Shown here one piece after another: positions 1-37,643 of a DNA stretch of 64,000 nt. Each line of letters opens with the position of its first letter. Positions within the stretch are counted from its first letter, which is position 1. The notes under the pieces were generated by a model, which worked only from the letters and a program-made list of their open reading frames with translations, ran no database searches and was not told the DNA's origin. The stretch lies in the NCBI RefSeq assembly GCF_003991205.1, contig NZ_RXOZ01000005.1, forward strand, positions 1 through 64,000, written 5' to 3'. The translations under genes were made by a program, and so were the position numbers. This DNA is from Georgenia sp. SYP-B2076. GTDB lineage: Bacteria > Actinomycetota > Actinomycetes > Actinomycetales > Actinomycetaceae.

Positions 1-118
1 TTTCCACCACCCACGGGTGGGAAGGCCCCCAGCAGACCACTGGGTTGATAGGCCGGACGTGGAAGCGAGGACTAACGACTCGTGAAGCTGACCGGTACTA
101 ATTGGCCGACAACTTGCC
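1..118 (+). rRNA. rrl: 23S ribosomal RNA, 3' end (partial)
   Basis: The window opens inside 23S rRNA. The segment around 47-106 (GTTGATAGGCCGG, then GACCGGTACTAAT) is the universally conserved 3'-terminal helix region of 23S rRNA. The 5' part lies outside the window. The exact 3' end is not visible; I place it shortly after GGCCGACAACTT, where the strand would pair with the 5' end of the molecule. Confidence 0.93.
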
Positions 119-227
119 ACACACCACTTCGGTGGTAGGGCATCAAAGACAATGCTGCGTCCACTGTACGGTTCCCGAGATACGCCCCACAACCCTTCAC
201 AAAGGGTTGGGCCGATATCTCCACAGA

Positions 228-346
228 GTTACGGCGGTCATAGCGAGGGGGAAACACCCGGTCCCATTCCGAACCCGGAAGCTAAGCCCCTCAGCGCCGA
301 TGGTACTGCACGGGAGACTGTGTGGGAGAGTAGGACACCGCCGAAC
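228..346 (+). rRNA. rrf: 5S ribosomal RNA
   Basis: This 119-nt segment begins GTTACGGCGGTCATAGCG and ends GTAGGACACCGCCGAAC, so its two ends pair (ACGGCGGT with ACCGCCGA-type complement), and it holds the conserved CCCATTCCGAACCCGG loop-A/B stretch of bacterial 5S rRNA. It follows 23S by about 110 nt, the usual order in an rrn operon. No tRNA is seen in the 23S-5S spacer or after 5S. Confidence 0.95.
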
Positions 347-355
347 ACCCTTCAC

Positions 356-397
356 AAGGAGGCCGCAACCCAGCGTTGCGGCCTCCTTGTCGTTTTT
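356..397 (+). terminator. Intrinsic terminator of the rRNA operon
   Basis: A perfect 13-bp stem (AAGGAGGCCGCAA at 356-368 with TTGCGGCCTCCTT at 376-388) closes a 7-nt loop and is followed by GTCGTTTTT. Stem, tight loop and U-run 10 nt after 5S make a textbook rho-independent terminator. Confidence 0.95.
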
Positions 398-464
398 GGA
401 CAATTTAGTTGCATCACCATGCGCCGACGATTCGATCGGCGCCCCCGAAGGAGTAGAGGAAACT

Positions 465-2804
465 ATGTCAACCGAGCATGATGGGCGTGGCGCGGAGCGC
501 CCGCGCCGCGGTGACAACCACGGGGGCGCCGGCCGCTCAGACCGCAGGTCAGGTGCCGACCGACCGCTCAGCGGAGGAGCTTCTCGGCCTGCGAGCCAGG
601 GCGCCGAAGCTTTCCGTGAGCGGACACAACGGCGAGGTAACGAGTCGCGCGGTGGCTCGGACCGTCGTGAGGGTGGTTACCAGTCCCGCGGTGGGAGCTC
701 GGACCGTCGTGAGGGTGGCTACCAGCCGCGTTCCGGTGGCAGTTCGGACCGTCGTGAGGGTGGCTACCAGCCGCGTTCCGGTGGCAGTTCGGACCGTCGT
801 GAGGGCGGTTACCAGTCCCGCGGTGCGGGCTCGGACCGTCGTGAGGGTGGCTACCAGCCGCGTTCCGGTGGGAGCTCGGACCGTCGTGAGGGCGGTTACC
901 AGTCCCGCGGTGGGAGCTCGGACCGTCGTGAGGGTGGCTACCAGCCGCGTTCCGGTGGGAGCTCGGATCGTCGTGAGGGCGGTTACCAGTCCCGCGGTGG
1001 GAGCTCGGACCGTCGTGAGGGCGGTTACCAGTCCCGCGGTGCGAGTTCTGACCGTCGTGAGGGCGGCTACCAGCCGCGTTCCGGTGGCAGCTCCGATCGT
1101 CGTGAGGGGGGCTACCAGCCGCGTTCCGGTGGCAGCTCCGATCGTCGTGAGGGCGGTTACCAGTCCCGCGGTGCGAGTTCTGACCGTCGTGAGGGCGGCT
1201 ACCAGCCGCGTTCCGGTGGCAGCTCCGATCGTCGTGAGGGGGGCTACCAGCCGCGTTCCGGTGGGAGCTCGGACCGTCGTGAGGGCGGTTACCAGTCCCG
1301 CGGTGGGAGCTCGGACCGTCGTGAGGGTGGCTACCAGCCGCGTTCCGGTGGCAGCTCGGACCGTCGTGAGGGCGGTTACCAGTCCCGCGGTGCGAGTTCC
1401 GACCGTCGTGAGGGCGGTTACCAGTCCCGCGGTGCGAGTTCCGATCGTCGTGAGGGTGGCTACCAGCCGCGTTCCGGTGGCAGCTCCGATCGTCGTGAGG
1501 GCGGTTACCAGTCCCGCGGTGCGAGATCCGATCGTCGTGAGGGCGGTTACCAGTCCCGCGGTGCGAGTTCCGATCGTCGTGAGGGTGGCTACCAGCCGCG
1601 TTCCGGTGGCAGCTCCGATCGTCGTGAGGGCGGCTACCAGCCGCGTTCCGGTGGGAGCTCCGACCGTCGTGAGGGCGGCTACCAGCCGCGTTCCGGTGGC
1701 AGCTCGGACCGTCGTGAGGGTGGTTACCAGTCCCGCGGTGCGAGTTCCGACCGTCGTGAGGGCGGCTACCAGCCGCGTTCCGGTGGCAGCTCGGACCGTC
1801 GTGAGGGTGGTTACCAGTCCCGCGGTGCCGGTTCCGACCGTCGCGAAGGTGGCTTCGACCGTGGAGGTTCGTCACGGCCCTCGACCGGGCGCGACGAACG
1901 GCCCAGGCGCGAGGAGCGGGACGAGCGGCCGGCCGAGCCGCACATCCCGGACGAGGTCGAGCCCCAGATGCTCGACCGCACGGCGCGCCAGCGTCTGCGC
2001 ACGCTCGGGAAGAACAACTCGGACCTCGTCTCTCGCCATCTCGTGATGGCTGGCCGGCTCATCGACACAGACCCGCAGACGGCATACGAGCACGCCCAGG
2101 CCGCCATGCGGCGGGCAGGCCGCGTCGACGTCGTCCGGGAGGCGCTGGCGCTGACCGCCTACGCGACCGGTCGGTTCGCCGAGGCGCTGCGCGAGCTCCG
2201 CACGGTGCGTCGCCTCTCCGGCATCGACGCGCACCGCCCGATGGAAGCCGACTGCGAACGCGGTCTCGGGCGTCCCGAGCGTGCGCTGGCCATCGTCGCG
2301 GAGACCGATCCTGCGACGCTCTCGCACGAGGAACGGGTCGAGCTCGCGATCGTCGCCAGCGGCGCCCGCGCCGAGCTCGGCGAGCACGAGGCCGGCCTGC
2401 TGGTGCTGGAGTCCGGGCTCGTGGACCCCGTGACTGAGCCCGAGCTGCTCCGTCGTCTGACGCTCGTCAAGGCCGAGAGGCTCGAGGAGCTGGGGCGCGT
2501 GGACGAGGCCGACCAGGCTCGCGAGGCGGCCGGCGCCGACGAAGAGGACGAGGAGATTATCGTCGTCGACCTCGCGGACGACTTCGACGAGGACTCCGAC
2601 GGCGTTTGGGACGACGACACCACGGTGTCGTCGCGGGCTGAGGTTGACGACGTCGCTGAGGCCGACGAGGTCGCCGACGAGGCAGAGGCCCCTGAGGCCG
2701 ACGAGGTCGCCGACGAGCCGGAGACCCCGCTCGGGGCCGAGACGGGCACCGGGCGGAGGTCCACCGACCCCGCTCCCACCCCCGAGCGCGGAGATGACGA
2801 GTGA
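465..2804 (+). CDS. Repeat-rich RGG-like / TPR protein
   Basis: A 779-residue protein in four parts: a short disordered N-terminus; residues 65-456 made of 27 tandem 14/15-residue units reading SDRREGGYQ followed by SRG(G/A)S or PRSGGS, plus a worn 28th unit; a helical domain at roughly 500-690 resembling tetratricopeptide repeats (MAGRLIDTDPQTAYEHAQAA, ALALTAYATGRFAEALREL); and a very acidic tail (EEDEEIIVV, then DEVADEAE-type repeats). The basic Arg/Gly/Tyr-rich half and the acidic tail suggest RNA binding or condensate behaviour, which is inference. The ATG at 465 follows GAAGGAG and AGAGGAA; an open frame further upstream runs into the rRNA and is not used. The stop overlaps the next start (GTGA). 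TPR proteins of this kind often precede the HAD-tlyA-nadK-recN run in Micrococcales. Confidence 0.85.
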   Translation: MSTEHDGRGAERPRRGDNHGGAGRSDRRSGADRPLSGGASRPASQGAEAFRERTQRRGNESRGGSDRREGGYQSRGGSSDRREGGYQPRSGGSSDRREGGYQPRSGGSSDRREGGYQSRGAGSDRREGGYQPRSGGSSDRREGGYQSRGGSSDRREGGYQPRSGGSSDRREGGYQSRGGSSDRREGGYQSRGASSDRREGGYQPRSGGSSDRREGGYQPRSGGSSDRREGGYQSRGASSDRREGGYQPRSGGSSDRREGGYQPRSGGSSDRREGGYQSRGGSSDRREGGYQPRSGGSSDRREGGYQSRGASSDRREGGYQSRGASSDRREGGYQPRSGGSSDRREGGYQSRGARSDRREGGYQSRGASSDRREGGYQPRSGGSSDRREGGYQPRSGGSSDRREGGYQPRSGGSSDRREGGYQSRGASSDRREGGYQPRSGGSSDRREGGYQSRGAGSDRREGGFDRGGSSRPSTGRDERPRREERDERPAEPHIPDEVEPQMLDRTARQRLRTLGKNNSDLVSRHLVMAGRLIDTDPQTAYEHAQAAMRRAGRVDVVREALALTAYATGRFAEALRELRTVRRLSGIDAHRPMEADCERGLGRPERALAIVAETDPATLSHEERVELAIVASGARAELGEHEAGLLVLESGLVDPVTEPELLRRLTLVKAERLEELGRVDEADQAREAAGADEEDEEIIVVDLADDFDEDSDGVWDDDTTVSSRAEVDDVAEADEVADEAEAPEADEVADEPETPLGAETGTGRRSTDPAPTPERGDDE
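657..1832 (+). repeat. 27-unit coding tandem repeat (42/45 bp)
   Basis: Twenty-seven uninterrupted in-frame units encode SDRREGGYQ plus a variable tail. Fourteen are 45 bp (tail PRSGGS) and thirteen are 42 bp (tail SRGGS, SRGAS, SRGAG or SRGAR). 14x45 + 13x42 = 1176 bp, exactly the span. Units differ mainly at synonymous positions (AGTTCG, AGCTCG, AGCTCC, AGTTCT) and those variants recur at separated units, so the array looks homogenised by slippage or unequal recombination. All lengths are multiples of three. Confidence 0.97.
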
Positions 2805-3877
2805 GCCAGGCACCGGTCACGCTGCGGGGCAGCGAGCGGCCCCTCGCCGAGGCGTACGACGTCGCCCTAATGGATCTGGACGGCGTGTGCTACCGCGGCC
2901 CCGAACCGGTCGAGCACGCGGACGAGGCCGTCGACCGCGCCCGCGCGCTCGGCCAGCGGATGATGTTCGTGACCAACAATGCGGCTCGCGAGCCGCAGAC
3001 GGTGGCCGACCAGCTCACCTCGCTCGGGATCCCGACCCGCGCGGAGGAGGTCATGACCTCCTCGCAGGCCGCCGCGGCGATCCTCGCCGAGGACCTGCCC
3101 GCGGGCTCCCTGGTGCTGCCCATCGGCGGCGCCGGGCTGCGCGCGGCGCTGTCGGAGGCGGGCTTCCGGCTCGCCGAGACGGCGCTCGAGCTCCCGGTGG
3201 CCGTCGTGCAGGGCTTCGCCCCCGAGATCGGGTGGCGGGAGCTCTGCGAGGCCGCCTTCGCCATCAACGCCGGCGCCCGGTACGTCGCCACGAACCTCGA
3301 CGCCACGCTCCCGACGGAACGTGGGATGGCGGTCGGGAACGGCTCGCTCGTCGCCGCGGTCACCAACGCGACCGGCGTCGTGCCGGTCTCGGCCGGCAAG
3401 CCGGAGCCAGAGATCTTCCGGCAGGCCGTCGCACGGGCATGCAGCGAGCGACCGCTGGCCGTCGGCGACCGCCTGAACACCGACCTCGCCGGCGCGCGCG
3501 CGGCCGGCGTCCCCGGGTTGCACGTGCTGACCGGCGTCAGCGACGCACGGGACGTGGTCCTCGCCGTCCCCGGGGAGCGGCCGAGCTTCCTCGCCGTCGA
3601 CCTGCGCGGCCTGGCCGAGCCCCACCCCGTGCCGCGGCAGGACCGCGACGGCTGGTGGCGCTGCGCCGCCGCGGCCGCGCGCGTTGCCGGCCCCGAGCCG
3701 CACCTCGAGGTGCGGGCGGGGGAGCGGACGCTGGCGCTGGAGGCCGGGACCGAGCCGGTGACAGTCTCGCTCGACGCGTGGCGCTGCCTCGCCGCGGCGG
3801 CGTGGGCCGCGGCCGACGCCGGTCGCCCGCTCACGCCGGAGCAGGTGCCTGCGCTCGAGGTCGTCGCGCCGCGATAG
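2801..3877 (+). CDS. HAD-superfamily phosphatase, NagD/GPP-like
   Basis: A 358-residue haloacid-dehalogenase phosphatase of the NagD / p-nitrophenylphosphatase group. Motif I is DLDG at residues 25-28 with the nucleophile Asp25; motif II is FVTNN near 55-59; the motif III lysine is in SAGKPEPEIF; motif IV is VGDRLNTDLAGA. A large C2-type cap lies between. The last ~100 residues (after DLRGLAEPHPVP) are an extension poorly explained by the HAD fold. Substrate is unknown; NagD relatives dephosphorylate sugar phosphates and nucleotides. The GTG start overlaps the preceding stop by 4 nt, implying translational coupling with the repeat protein. Confidence 0.88.
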   Translation: MSQAPVTLRGSERPLAEAYDVALMDLDGVCYRGPEPVEHADEAVDRARALGQRMMFVTNNAAREPQTVADQLTSLGIPTRAEEVMTSSQAAAAILAEDLPAGSLVLPIGGAGLRAALSEAGFRLAETALELPVAVVQGFAPEIGWRELCEAAFAINAGARYVATNLDATLPTERGMAVGNGSLVAAVTNATGVVPVSAGKPEPEIFRQAVARACSERPLAVGDRLNTDLAGARAAGVPGLHVLTGVSDARDVVLAVPGERPSFLAVDLRGLAEPHPVPRQDRDGWWRCAAAAARVAGPEPHLEVRAGERTLALEAGTEPVTVSLDAWRCLAAAAWAAADAGRPLTPEQVPALEVVAPR

Positions 3878-4081: not shown

Positions 4082-4930
4082 GTGGCCCGCCGCGTACGGA
4101 TCGACGCCGAGCTGGTCCGCCGGGGCCTGGCACGGTCGCGCCAGCATGCCGGCGAGCTCCTCGCCGCGGGCCATGTGCTCCTGGACGGCGAGGTCGTCAC
4201 CAAGCCCGCGCGGCAGGTCGACCCCGCGCAGGCCCTGCGGGTGGACGCGCCCGCGAGCGACGACTACGTCTCCCGCGGCGCCCACAAGCTGGCTGGCGCG
4301 CTCGACGCCCTCGGCGCGCACGCACCGGTGGTGGCGGGGCGGCGCTGCCTCGACGCCGGAGCCTCGACCGGCGGGTTCACCGACGTGCTCCTGCGCCGGG
4401 GGGCCGCCCAGGTCGTGGCCGTCGACGTCGGCTACGGCCAGCTCGCGTGGTCCCTGCAGACCGACCCGCGGGTCACGGTGCTGGACCGCACGAACGTGCG
4501 GACCCTGACCCCGGACATGGTCGCCCCGGCCCCGGGTCTCGTCGTGGGGGACATGTCCTTCATCTCCCTCACGCTCGTGCTCCCGGCCCTGGCGCGGGCG
4601 GCCGCGCCCGACGCCGACCTGCTGCTCATGGTCAAGCCCCAGTTCGAGGTGGGCAAGGAACGCCTGGGCCACGGCGGCGTCGTGCGCGACACCGCGCTGC
4701 ACGTGGAATCGGTGCTCACCGTCGCCGCCGCCGCGGCCGAGCAGGGCCTGGACACCTGGGCCGTCGTGCCGAGCCCCCTGCCGGGGCCCTCGGGCAACGT
4801 CGAGTACTTCGTCGCCCTGCGCCGGGACCATCCCCGGGCCCTGCGCGGCGAGGCGCTCGAGCACGCCGCCGCGGAGGCCGTCCGGACCGGACCGGCCGGC
4901 CCGGCGGCCCGCGGGCAGGAGGCGCCGTGA
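4082..4930 (+). CDS. tlyA: TlyA-family rRNA 2'-O-methyltransferase
   Basis: A 282-residue protein with an N-terminal S4 RNA-binding domain (residues ~1-60, ending HVLLDGEVV) and a C-terminal FtsJ/RrmJ-like methyltransferase domain. The SAM-binding motif DAGASTGGFTDVLL is clear, followed by VVAVDVGYGQL and the VKPQFEVGKE motif with a catalytic lysine. In mycobacteria TlyA methylates C1409 of 16S rRNA and C1920 of 23S rRNA, and its loss gives capreomycin resistance; the same role is inferred here. GTG start 1 nt after the preceding stop; its own stop overlaps nadK by 4 nt. Confidence 0.93.
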   Translation: MARRVRIDAELVRRGLARSRQHAGELLAAGHVLLDGEVVTKPARQVDPAQALRVDAPASDDYVSRGAHKLAGALDALGAHAPVVAGRRCLDAGASTGGFTDVLLRRGAAQVVAVDVGYGQLAWSLQTDPRVTVLDRTNVRTLTPDMVAPAPGLVVGDMSFISLTLVLPALARAAAPDADLLLMVKPQFEVGKERLGHGGVVRDTALHVESVLTVAAAAAEQGLDTWAVVPSPLPGPSGNVEYFVALRRDHPRALRGEALEHAAAEAVRTGPAGPAARGQEAP

Positions 4931-12299: not shown

Positions 12300-13607
12300 A
12301 TGCGGGTGCTGCAGCTGACCGGGTCGAGCGCCGGAGGGGTGGCACGCCACGCCCGTGAGATCAGCGCGCTGCTCGCCGCCGGGCCGGTGCCCGGTGGGCC
12401 GGAGCCTGCTGGGCCGGTGCCTGGTGGGCCGGAGCCTGCTGGGCCGGTGCCCGGTGGGCCCGCCCGCCACGGGGACCGCGGGGCGGAGGTGATCCTCGCG
12501 GGCCCCGCCGACGTGGTCGGGCCCATGGCCGAGGAGGACCTCCCCGGCGCCCGGTCGGTGCACACCACCGTCGTGGAGATCGCCGACCGCCCCCAGCCCC
12601 AGGACGCGCGAGCCGTCGCCCGCGTGCGCGAGCTCGCGGCCGGGGCCGACGTCGTTCACGCCCACGGGCTGCGCGCCGGCGCGATGGCCGTCCTCGCCGT
12701 GCGCACCCTCGGGGTCGCGCGGCCGCGCCTGGTCGTGACCGTGCACAACCTGCCCGTCGGGGGCCCGCGCGTGCAGGCCGTGGCGGGCGTGCTCGAGAAG
12801 GTCGTCGCGCGCGGGGCCGACGCCGTGCTCGCCGTCAGCGGCGACCTCGTGGCCCGCATGCGCACCCGGGGCGCGCGCGACGTACGGCGGGCGCTCGTGC
12901 CGGCGCCGGCGCGTCCGGTCCCCGGAACGGCGCCGGAGGACGTGCGCCGCGACCTGGGCCTGGCGCCGGGCGAGCGGCTCATCCTGACCGTGGCGCGGCT
13001 CGCGCCGCAGAAGGGCCTGGACCTCCTGGCCGACGCCGCGGGCCTTCTCGCCCGCGCCGACCCTGCCGACGCTGCTGACCGCGCCGACGCTGCTGACCGC
13101 GCCGACCCTGCTGACCGCACTGACCGCGCCGACCGTACCGACCGCGCCGACCCTCCTGACCGCGCCGCCCCTGGGGCGGCCGCGTGGCGGTGGGTCGTCG
13201 TGGGCGACGGGCCGTTGCGCGAGGACCTCGCCGAGCGGGTGCGCGCCGAGGGCCTGCCCGTCCACCTGGCCGGCCGCCGCGACGACGTCCCGGCGCTGCT
13301 CGCGGCCGCCGACGTCGTGGTCTCCACCGCCACGTGGGAGGGGCAGCCCATCGCGGTCCAGGAGGCGCTGCGCGCCGGCGCGCCCGTCGTCGCCACGGAC
13401 GTCGGCGGCACCCGGGAGGTCACGGGGGACGCCGCCGTGCTCGTGCCCGGCGGCGACGCCGAGGCACTCGCCGCGGCCGTGCGCGCCATCCTGGACGACG
13501 ACGACCGGCGCGCGGGGCTGCGCGTGACGGCACGGGAGCGGGCCGCGACCCTGCCCGGCCCCGCGGAGGTGCTCGCCCAGCTGACCGCGGTGTACGCCCG
13601 CCCCTAG
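12300..13607 (+). CDS. Glycosyltransferase family 4 (GT-B)
   Basis: A 435-residue GT-B glycosyltransferase. The N-terminal half has GSSAGGVARHAREIS and VVHAHGLRAGAMAV; the C-terminal half has ILTVARLAPQKGLDLL, VVGDGPLREDLAE, and the nucleotide-sugar site around EGQPIAVQEALRAGAPVVATDVGG. Substrates are unknown; proximity to murJ and the PNPT-like gene suggests a lipid-linked envelope glycan. Two low-complexity stretches interrupt the fold: GPVPGGPEPA repeats at residues ~28-54 and an ADPADAADRADAADR-type run at ~253-290. The ATG follows GAAGAGGA. Confidence 0.85.
   Translation: MRVLQLTGSSAGGVARHAREISALLAAGPVPGGPEPAGPVPGGPEPAGPVPGGPARHGDRGAEVILAGPADVVGPMAEEDLPGARSVHTTVVEIADRPQPQDARAVARVRELAAGADVVHAHGLRAGAMAVLAVRTLGVARPRLVVTVHNLPVGGPRVQAVAGVLEKVVARGADAVLAVSGDLVARMRTRGARDVRRALVPAPARPVPGTAPEDVRRDLGLAPGERLILTVARLAPQKGLDLLADAAGLLARADPADAADRADAADRADPADRTDRADRTDRADPPDRAAPGAAAWRWVVVGDGPLREDLAERVRAEGLPVHLAGRRDDVPALLAAADVVVSTATWEGQPIAVQEALRAGAPVVATDVGGTREVTGDAAVLVPGGDAEALAAAVRAILDDDDRRAGLRVTARERAATLPGPAEVLAQLTAVYARP
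12381..12460 (+). repeat. 30-bp in-frame tandem repeat, 2.7 copies
   Basis: Copies at 12381-12410 and 12411-12440 differ at one base, with a 20-bp partial copy at 12441-12460. They encode GPVPGGPEPA within the glycosyltransferase N-terminal domain. Confidence 0.95.
13054..13170 (+). repeat. Degenerate short tandem repeat (ADR/TDR-rich)
   Basis: Imperfect repeats built on GCGCCGACCCTGCTGACC (about 18 bp, with 9-bp subunits) encode alternating Ala-Asp and Asp-Arg residues. The stretch inserts about 38 residues between the two conserved segments of the glycosyltransferase C-terminal domain. Confidence 0.85.
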
Positions 13608-26406: not shown

Positions 26407-26440
26407 GCGTGCCGGCTCGCGGCCCGTCCGCGTGCCGGCG

Positions 26441-26509
26441 CGGCCTGCGGCGTCCCGCCGGCACGGCCTGCGGCGTCCCGCCGGCACGGCCTGCGGCGTC
26501 CCGCCGGCG
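26441..26509. repeat. 23-bp tandem repeat, 3 copies
   Basis: CGGCCTGCGGCGTCCCGCCG plus GCA occurs three times (26441-26463, 26464-26486, 26487-26509; last base differs). It lies in the non-coding gap between the convergent suf operon and metallopeptidase gene, beside further CCCGTCCGCGTGCCGGC repeats at 26400-26440. Confidence 0.93.
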
Positions 26510-26527
26510 CGGGGCCTCGTGAGCCGC

Positions 26528-36744: not shown

Positions 36745-36826
36745 GCCGGTCAGGCGGCTGACCGGTCCGTCGGGTGCCGGGCCGGTCAGGCGGCTGACCG
36801 GTCCATCAGGTGCCGGGCCGGTCAGG
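36745..36826. repeat. 36-bp tandem repeat with internal hairpins
   Basis: Two 36-bp copies (36745-36780 and 36781-36816) differ at two bases, with a 10-bp partial third copy. Each holds CCGGTCA-N6-TGACCGG, a 7-bp stem. It fills the gap between the convergent glgA and the next gene, so a terminator function is plausible. Confidence 0.9.
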
Positions 36827-37643
36827 AGGCGGGGCGCGTCGCGCTCGCGGCGCACAGCGCGTGCCGCGCAGAGCGTTCCACGCGGGAGAGGGCGGCGCGG
36901 CGCTGGTGCGCCTGCGCCGCCGTCACCGCGCCGCCGTCGTCGCCGATCGCGAGGTCGACGATCGCCAGGACGCGCGCGGCCCGCTCCAGGACGTCCAGGC
37001 GGCGCGGGTCCAGACCCTGCGGCAGCAGCCGGTCCGGCACGGTGGCGAGCGACAGGTCGAGGAGATGGTCGGCGACGTCGGGCCGGTCGCGGGCGACGTC
37101 GAGCGCCTCGAGCACCTCGACGGCCTCGGTGAGCGCCCACTGGATCTCCCGCCGGGCGCTGGACAACGAGTCCACCCCGGCGAGCAGGAGGCTCGGGGCG
37201 GGCAGGAGGTCGGTGATGTCGTCGTCGACGGTCCACGTGACCAGCTCGCCCGGCTCCAGGAAGCTGCCGTAGCGCAGGCGCGTGGGCACGAGGACGCCGC
37301 AGGCCTCCGAGCCCCCGACCGGGCGGCGCACGAGCACGCCCTCGCCGGCGTCGAGCAGGTCCGCCGAGCGCATCGCCGGGGCGCCCATCGGGTCGCCGGG
37401 ACGCGGCAGGATCGCCGCCGCCTCCTCGACCGGGACGAGCATGGCCAGCACGTCGGCGAGGGACTCGCCGGCGCTGTGCGCGGCGGCCGTCGGTGCCGGG
37501 CCCCGCCGGTGCACGAGGTGCGGCTCGTCGGTGCCGGTCACCGCCGCGGCGGCGCGCTGGGCGCTCGCGCCGTCGCCGACGGCGGGGAGCCACAGCGCCA
37601 GCGTGATCGACGCCGGGAGCTCCAGGATGGCAGGACCGGACAT
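36822..37643 (-). CDS. Conserved-looking protein of unknown function
   Basis: I do not recognise a family for this 273-residue protein. It is soluble, with an N-terminal half of alternating strands and helices (begins MSGPAILELPASITLALWLP), a central segment GVLVPTRLRYGSFLEPGELVTW, and a helical C-terminus of about 130 residues (SARREIQWALTEAVEVLEAL onward) ending in a basic tail. Codon use is normal. I start at ATG 37643 because a TATCGT box ends 7 nt before it; a GTG at 37652 overlaps that box. Divergent from the ABC ATPase gene. Confidence 0.75.
   Translation of the reverse strand: MSGPAILELPASITLALWLPAVGDGASAQRAAAAVTGTDEPHLVHRRGPAPTAAAHSAGESLADVLAMLVPVEEAAAILPRPGDPMGAPAMRSADLLDAGEGVLVRRPVGGSEACGVLVPTRLRYGSFLEPGELVTWTVDDDITDLLPAPSLLLAGVDSLSSARREIQWALTEAVEVLEALDVARDRPDVADHLLDLSLATVPDRLLPQGLDPRRLDVLERAARVLAIVDLAIGDDGGAVTAAQAHQRRAALSRVERSARHALCAASATRPAS

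Follow-up and report, generated by a model that had tools for sequence, protein, structure and literature searches.

The closest described relatives of the gene investigated in this study are found in mycobacteria. In M. tuberculosis, the lprJ-recN operon contains the TPR gene Rv1691, the phosphatase gene Rv1692, tlyA, ppnK and recN (PMC3072309). The orthologue of Rv1691 in M. smegmatis, MSMEG_3754, was listed with high confidence in an RNA-polymerase pull-down but recovered no DNA, and the authors suggest that it may be RNA-associated (PMC7092591). Our search of the literature on actinobacterial RGG/TPR proteins, the mycobacterial RNA-binding proteome and disordered TPR proteins of Streptomyces found no report of function. 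A second point of reference is provided by the arginine mixed-charge domains of eukaryotes, which enter RNA-rich condensates, with a partitioning between speckles and the nucleolus that follows charge pattern and net charge, whereas strictly alternating R/D peptides do not undergo phase separation in vitro (PMC9324279). Beyond what the initial annotation of the sequence had described, we find that the kind of tail seen in Georgenia and a location behind the rRNA operon are both common to a large part of Actinomycetota.

The Georgenia gene is contained in a window of 64,000 nucleotides, the whole stretch of DNA that was analysed, which is located on contig 6 of a 37-contig draft genome of 4.28 Mb. 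Its relatives from the same genus match the named loci of Georgenia ruanii, G. subflava, G. thermotolerans and Georgenia sp. EYE_87, which places the organism in Georgenia. The contig begins within a 23S rRNA gene, whose 3' end (1..121, on the + strand as all features described here; Rfam RF02541, 59 bits) is followed by a 5S rRNA (230..346; RF00001, 110.5 bits) and the intrinsic terminator of the rRNA operon (354..390), which consists of a 16-pair stem and a subsequent CGTTTTTGG, and whose stem core GGCCGCAAC..GTTGCGGCC recurs in most of the compared relatives. A gap of 74 nt (391..464), with a ribosome-binding site AAGGAG at about 448-453, leads from the stem to the ATG at 465, where a repeat gene coding for 779 residues starts (465..2804). 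The gene is the first one after the terminator, as had been pointed out before, and this arrangement is common to much of the phylum. The encoded protein comprises an arginine-rich repeat tail, a TPR-like domain and an acidic tail. In the first of these parts, an Arg/Gly/Ser-rich leader of 64 residues without repeats (465..656) precedes an array of 27 complete units with CGT/GGT-biased codons (657..1832) and a degenerate 28th unit, SDRREGGFDRGGSS (1833..1874). The conserved TPR-like helical domain extends from 1917 to 2591 as aligned and modelled, and the acidic tail (2535..2801), with a net charge of -0.37 per residue, is strongly acidic, in agreement with the initial annotation of an acidic tail. 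The start of the adjacent gene, which encodes an Rv1692-like phosphatase of the HAD type (2801..3877; Hydrolase_6, Hydrolase_like and a weak GNAT_like match), shares 4 bp with the end of the repeat gene. It is followed by a small ORF and by a gene for a TlyA-type protein with S4 and FtsJ methyltransferase parts (4082..4930), which we take to be an rRNA methyltransferase, and the ORFs beyond resemble, by inspection, NAD kinase, RecN and SteA/SteB. The locus thus shares the domain family and the downstream order (Rv1692 phosphatase, tlyA, ppnK, recN) with Rv1691 and MSMEG_3754, of which the repeat gene is an orthologue. However, whereas loci of the mycobacterial type carry a tail of about 40-80 residues, the tail of the Georgenia protein extends over about 490 residues with 27 repeats, and its gene is placed behind a 5S gene.

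The conserved part of the protein is its TPR-like domain. At the level of the GTDB family, homologues of this domain were detected in 203 of 213 genomes, and at that of the order in 183 of 188 good genomes, while a survey of the phylum yielded 113 of 297, mostly with one match per genome. We regard the protein as ancient within Actinomycetota and as mostly present in a single copy. No known domain or solved homologue of the window protein was found above cut-off. Its assignment as TPR-like, already made in the initial annotation, is supported by weak matches to TPR profiles of Pfam (12.6-15.1 bits at cut-offs of 25-27, and thus sub-threshold), by an all-helical model (pLDDT 73.5, pTM 0.54, obtained from a shallow alignment of 5 rows) and by the matches of this model in Foldseek, the best of which, at an E-value of 0.0075 and identities of 12-19%, are to TPR solenoids, with no match at E <= 0.001. 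Among 42 relatives, up to 14 reach E <= 0.01 against a TPR model. The relationship to known TPR solenoids (consensus TPR, MamA, YrrB, NlpI) is that of a generic resemblance in fold, where a helical solenoid is found in a model of moderate confidence. A comparison across lineages reveals that it is the domain, as orthologue of Rv1691/MSMEG_3754, that is widespread, whereas the sequence of the repeats differs by lineage.

In the window, each unit of the array consists of SDRREGGYQ followed either by a PRSGGS tail (45 bp, 14 units) or by a tail of the type SRG[G/A]S with variants (42 bp, 13 units). The two kinds follow each other in the mixed order ABBABABAABBABBABAABAABBBABA, and the previous count of 27 consecutive units proved exact, although the number is provisional for a draft assembly with exact self-matches of up to 122 bp in the array; arrays of like kind and length are present in single-contig relatives. 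With a period-dependent TRF score of 1364-1778, the array is far above every other array in the window. All 27 copies of the DNA motif encoding RREGGY in the 4.28-Mb genome lie within the repeat gene, with none in the reversed control, and this genome-wide motif search found no paralogous arrays elsewhere. All five variable columns of the 45-bp units are third codon positions, which indicates that the repeat is under coding constraint as a protein sequence, and the 42-bp units vary at third codon positions and additionally by changes in their tail.

The same array had been interpreted as a product of recent expansion or continuing recombination, of which the turnover is borne out and the recency only in part. 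Turnover is evident in the longest exact internal copies, of 122, 110, 101 and 83 bp, which are found at shifts of 132, 393, 129 and 87 bp, each a step of whole units, and in sister species that differ in motif number. In a pair of loci whose phosphatase genes are 95.3% identical (L038/L040), the numbers of GG[YFH] motifs are 28 and 31, and in a second pair with 88.6% identity (L004/L007) they are 20 and 22, with alignment gaps in the tail totalling 117 nt in each pair. Copy number is thus not conserved between relatives, identity in distant ones having been named as an observation that would speak against ongoing expansion. The divergence at fourfold sites between units of the array amounts to 0.33, which is near the values of 0.41-0.60 found at the TPR domain between the window and other Georgenia species, and adjacent units show no significant excess of similarity (permutation P = 0.09). 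A very recent homogenisation of the array was rejected on these grounds. The similar magnitude of both divergences fits better with an old array under long-running turnover, with a few recent block copies, than with a single recent burst.

The properties that persist despite this turnover are revealed in a comparison of orthologues. Across the family, order and class, the tail, which is carried by most relatives in the class, is a low-complexity, arginine-rich and lysine-poor region located N-terminal to the domain, mostly of 100 to more than 700 residues and in some cases of 40-120, which is built from lineage-specific repeats such as QRRDGDRREGGY, QGGPRREGDRREGGY, QGRSDDRREGGY, RPPRDGERRSYDS, FRRDDNRGGG, NDRGGYRRDDRGGRSFDR and many others. 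In 66 tails of at least 150 residues, on which the composition statistics are based, the mean fractions are 0.27 for R, 0.21 for G, 0.20 for D+E, 0.06 for aromatic residues and 0.011 for K. The fraction of R correlates with that of D+E (r = 0.83), and the net charge per residue is confined to +0.076 +/- 0.020 (SD; 66 loci), compared to an SD of about 0.057 estimated from the SDs of both fractions if they varied independently. In 47 of 48 loci, lysine is rarer relative to arginine in the tail than in the adjoining TPR domain, which also holds for genomes of lower GC content; as in all counts across loci, the loci are related by descent and not independent. The description of the Georgenia tail as RGG-like is appropriate for its Arg/Gly/Tyr-rich, disordered character, which it shares with RGG/RG-box RNA-binding proteins, but it does not hold in the strict sense. 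With spacers of 0-4 residues, the window tail contains no di-RGG, tri-RGG or tri-RG and a single di-RG, so that a classical RGG box was rejected for this mixed-charge domain, in which acidic residues nearly balance arginine. Of the 75 loci whose tails comprise 100 residues or more, 38 do have a tri-RG or di-RGG.

The composition of the tail is typical of an arginine-enriched mixed-charge domain, more so than of an RGG box. It resembles the respective domains of eukaryotic nuclear speckle and nucleolar proteins in being rich in arginine, poor in lysine, compensated by acidic residues, of low complexity and near-neutral, but it is richer in glycine, serine and tyrosine, a resemblance which we consider as convergent and not homologous. 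Compared to mixed-charge domains that are primarily composed of R and D/E, charged residues account for a fraction of 0.36 in the window and of 0.63-0.65 in orthologues from large genomes (probably Streptomyces). We propose that selection holds the composition and the charge balance of the tail rather than its sequence, and a disordered tail that is rebuilt in each lineage at one charge balance offers a natural experiment in what selection preserves. Alternatively, the array could be a low-complexity tail grown by slippage, with little role beyond solubility or spacing. This would account for the fast change in copy number and sequence and for the shorter tails, of 40-120 residues, that suffice in mycobacteria and in some other orthologues, yet we regard it as improbable, since it leaves unexplained the restriction of variation to third positions in the 45-bp units, the narrow net charge with its compensation between arginine and acidic residues and its exclusion of lysine, and the fact that many families of the class have a long tail.

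A second pronounced feature of the gene concerns its location. In the loci fetched with 1.5 kb or more of upstream sequence, a 5S gene ending within 1 kb of the start codon on the same strand was found in 22 of 33 loci of the family (median gap 171 nt) and in 27 of 31 loci of the order, class and phylum (median gap 123 nt), which places 49 of 64 loci directly behind 5S; at representative loci, 23S and 5S were confirmed by Rfam. Outside the class, both were found upstream in 14 of 20 further loci, in 13 of them directly and in one at a distance of about 0.95 kb. We estimate the probability of a chance placement within 1 kb of one of the few 5S genes to be about 0.001. Distant bacteria normally lose gene order, yet this uncharacterised gene keeps its place behind 5S across much of the phylum. 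In 14 compared relatives, the gaps between terminator stem and start codon span 35-74 nt, and 12 of these 14 gaps are devoid of a TANNNT hexamer, where about half would be expected to lack one by base composition. The gap at 391-464 of the window likewise contains no promoter-like match and no TANNNT. The scarcity of this hexamer speaks against a conserved promoter at this place but does not prove read-through. Short gaps devoid of a conserved -10 element suggest that the repeat gene is probably expressed by read-through of the rRNA terminator, and its product is a testable candidate for regulation of protein level through rRNA transcription, in the phylum of Mycobacterium and Streptomyces.

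In one genome (G606, loci L166 and L167), an identical block of 4,544 bp, which comprises the end of 23S-5S and most of the TPR gene, is present twice (L167:49-4592), illustrating that duplication or conversion of the rRNA operon can include the gene.

The nucleotide sequence of the array is distinguished by its codon usage. Arginine is encoded by CGT in 83% of cases and glycine by GGT in 50%, compared to 5% and 6% in four neighbouring genes, and in the family the use of CGT in the tail exceeds that in the TPR domain at 42 of 48 loci and that in the phosphatase and TlyA genes at 45 of 48. A simple bias for high expression was rejected as cause, since the CGT share of arginine codons in the window tail (0.68) exceeds that of rpsL (0.18) and of the start of fusA (0.00) from the same genome. 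Instead, the array contains no two-tract G-quadruplex motif, compared to a mean of 36.6 overlapping motifs after recoding with local codons, and in four other arrays tested the number of such motifs is likewise well below expectation. In its simplest reading, we infer that the choice of CGT and GGT reflects an escape from G-quadruplex-forming mRNA. Avoidance of G-quadruplexes is a better lead than avoidance of stable folding, which is more weakly supported: of five native arrays, four are less folded than their recoded versions (one of them within about 1 sd), but only two are less folded than permutations of their own codons. The departure of codon usage from that of the neighbours might suggest that the repeat was selected as an element of DNA or mRNA, such as a recombination site beside the rRNA operon or a regulatory mRNA, rather than as protein, and the array indeed adjoins a region where recombination is frequent, as in the block found twice in G606. 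We nevertheless consider this very improbable. The reading frame, the bias in codon position and the charge balance are signals at the level of the protein, the same composition is attained by different repeats in other lineages, and the codon bias removes G-quadruplex motifs but builds no conserved element. The evidence from codon position and charge balance thus disfavours an origin as DNA element and as product of slippage alike.

A more serious alternative is raised by the adjacent phosphatase. Its mycobacterial counterpart Rv1692 has been described in M. tuberculosis as a glycerol-3-phosphate phosphatase. The repeat protein might serve as partner or scaffold of this enzyme, which would be bound by the TPR-like domain and clustered or positioned by the disordered array, with the rRNA neighbourhood being merely a source of strong transcription. 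The association of both genes is close, as reflected in their overlap in the window and in the family, where the phosphatase gene is located within 100 nt downstream or fused in 33 of 33 loci, 12 of which are fusions; fused genes occur in several genera. In a different family, the TPR-like domain of L164 has undergone a separate fusion to the phosphatase and there it is almost devoid of an arginine-rich tail. However, no adjacent phosphatase match was found in the out-of-class loci checked, in several of which the linkage to the rRNA operon persists, so that the linkage to the rRNA operon reaches further than that to the phosphatase, which is strong at the level of the class. In addition, the phosphatase is located about 1.45 kb further on in the family with genomes of 7-10 Mb (probably Streptomyces), and a small-molecule phosphatase has no obvious need of an arginine-rich tail. 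While serious, a role as phosphatase partner thus appears to us unlikely on balance.

Based on the anatomy of the gene, its conservation and linkage to the rRNA operon, the compositional constraint and the turnover in copy number, we tentatively propose that the protein serves as a multivalent scaffold in association with RNA or ribosomes and that its level varies with rRNA synthesis, a proposal to which we assign slightly less than an even chance. In such a mechanism, read-through of the rRNA terminator would couple the amount of protein to rRNA synthesis, the array would act as a multivalent chain of stickers through contacts of arginine with tyrosine, with acidic residues and probably with RNA, and a conserved partner would be docked by the TPR-like domain, so that both parts together could scaffold assemblies of nascent rRNA, of ribosomes or of RNA polymerase. 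The array would grow and shrink by duplication of units and blocks, while its composition and charge balance would be under selection. This scaffold is favoured by the conservation of the domain, the linkage to 5S, the promoter-poor gaps, the constraint on tail charge and the third-position-only variation, and also by the presence of MSMEG_3754 in the RNA-polymerase pull-down (PMC7092591), of TlyA encoded next to it, and by the known entry of arginine mixed-charge domains into RNA-rich condensates (PMC9324279). It is weakened by the nearly balanced charge of the tail, in light of the absent phase separation of alternating R/D peptides (PMC9324279), by the fact that MSMEG_3754 was found in a single pull-down and that mycobacterial orthologues are short-tailed, by the strong terminator that stands between 5S and the repeat gene, by the 11 of 33 family loci and the lprJ-recN operon of M. 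tuberculosis, which are not linked to an rRNA operon, and by the phosphatase fusions, which point to a metabolic partner.

The individual parts of this proposal differ in their strength. An association of the protein with RNA or ribosomes is plausible, if somewhat short of probable, and the formation of condensates, for which the behaviour of mixed-charge domains would have to carry over to bacteria by analogy, is possible but rather doubtful. Still further removed, and in our view improbable, is the notion that an arginine-rich scaffold encoded with the rRNA operon gathers nascent rRNA, assembling ribosomes or clusters of RNA polymerase into a condensate, as a convergent bacterial counterpart of the glycine-arginine-rich and mixed-charge proteins of nucleoli and speckles that would be tuned by repeat number. 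If the scaffold proposal were true, the locus would provide a genetically simple bacterial system for asking whether sites of rRNA synthesis form condensates.

Several minor observations concern the surroundings of the gene. In an out-of-class relative, the 23S region upstream of the TPR gene contains a group I intron (L186:2820-3121; Rfam, 58 bits). In L193 (492-2019), the TPR gene is located downstream of 16S, whereas the stretch fetched contained neither a 23S nor a 5S match, pointing to an unusual or split rRNA arrangement. The window itself contains further short tandem repeats at 12381-12460, 26434-26512 and 36745-36830, with units of 30, 23 and 36 bp and matches of 94-96%.
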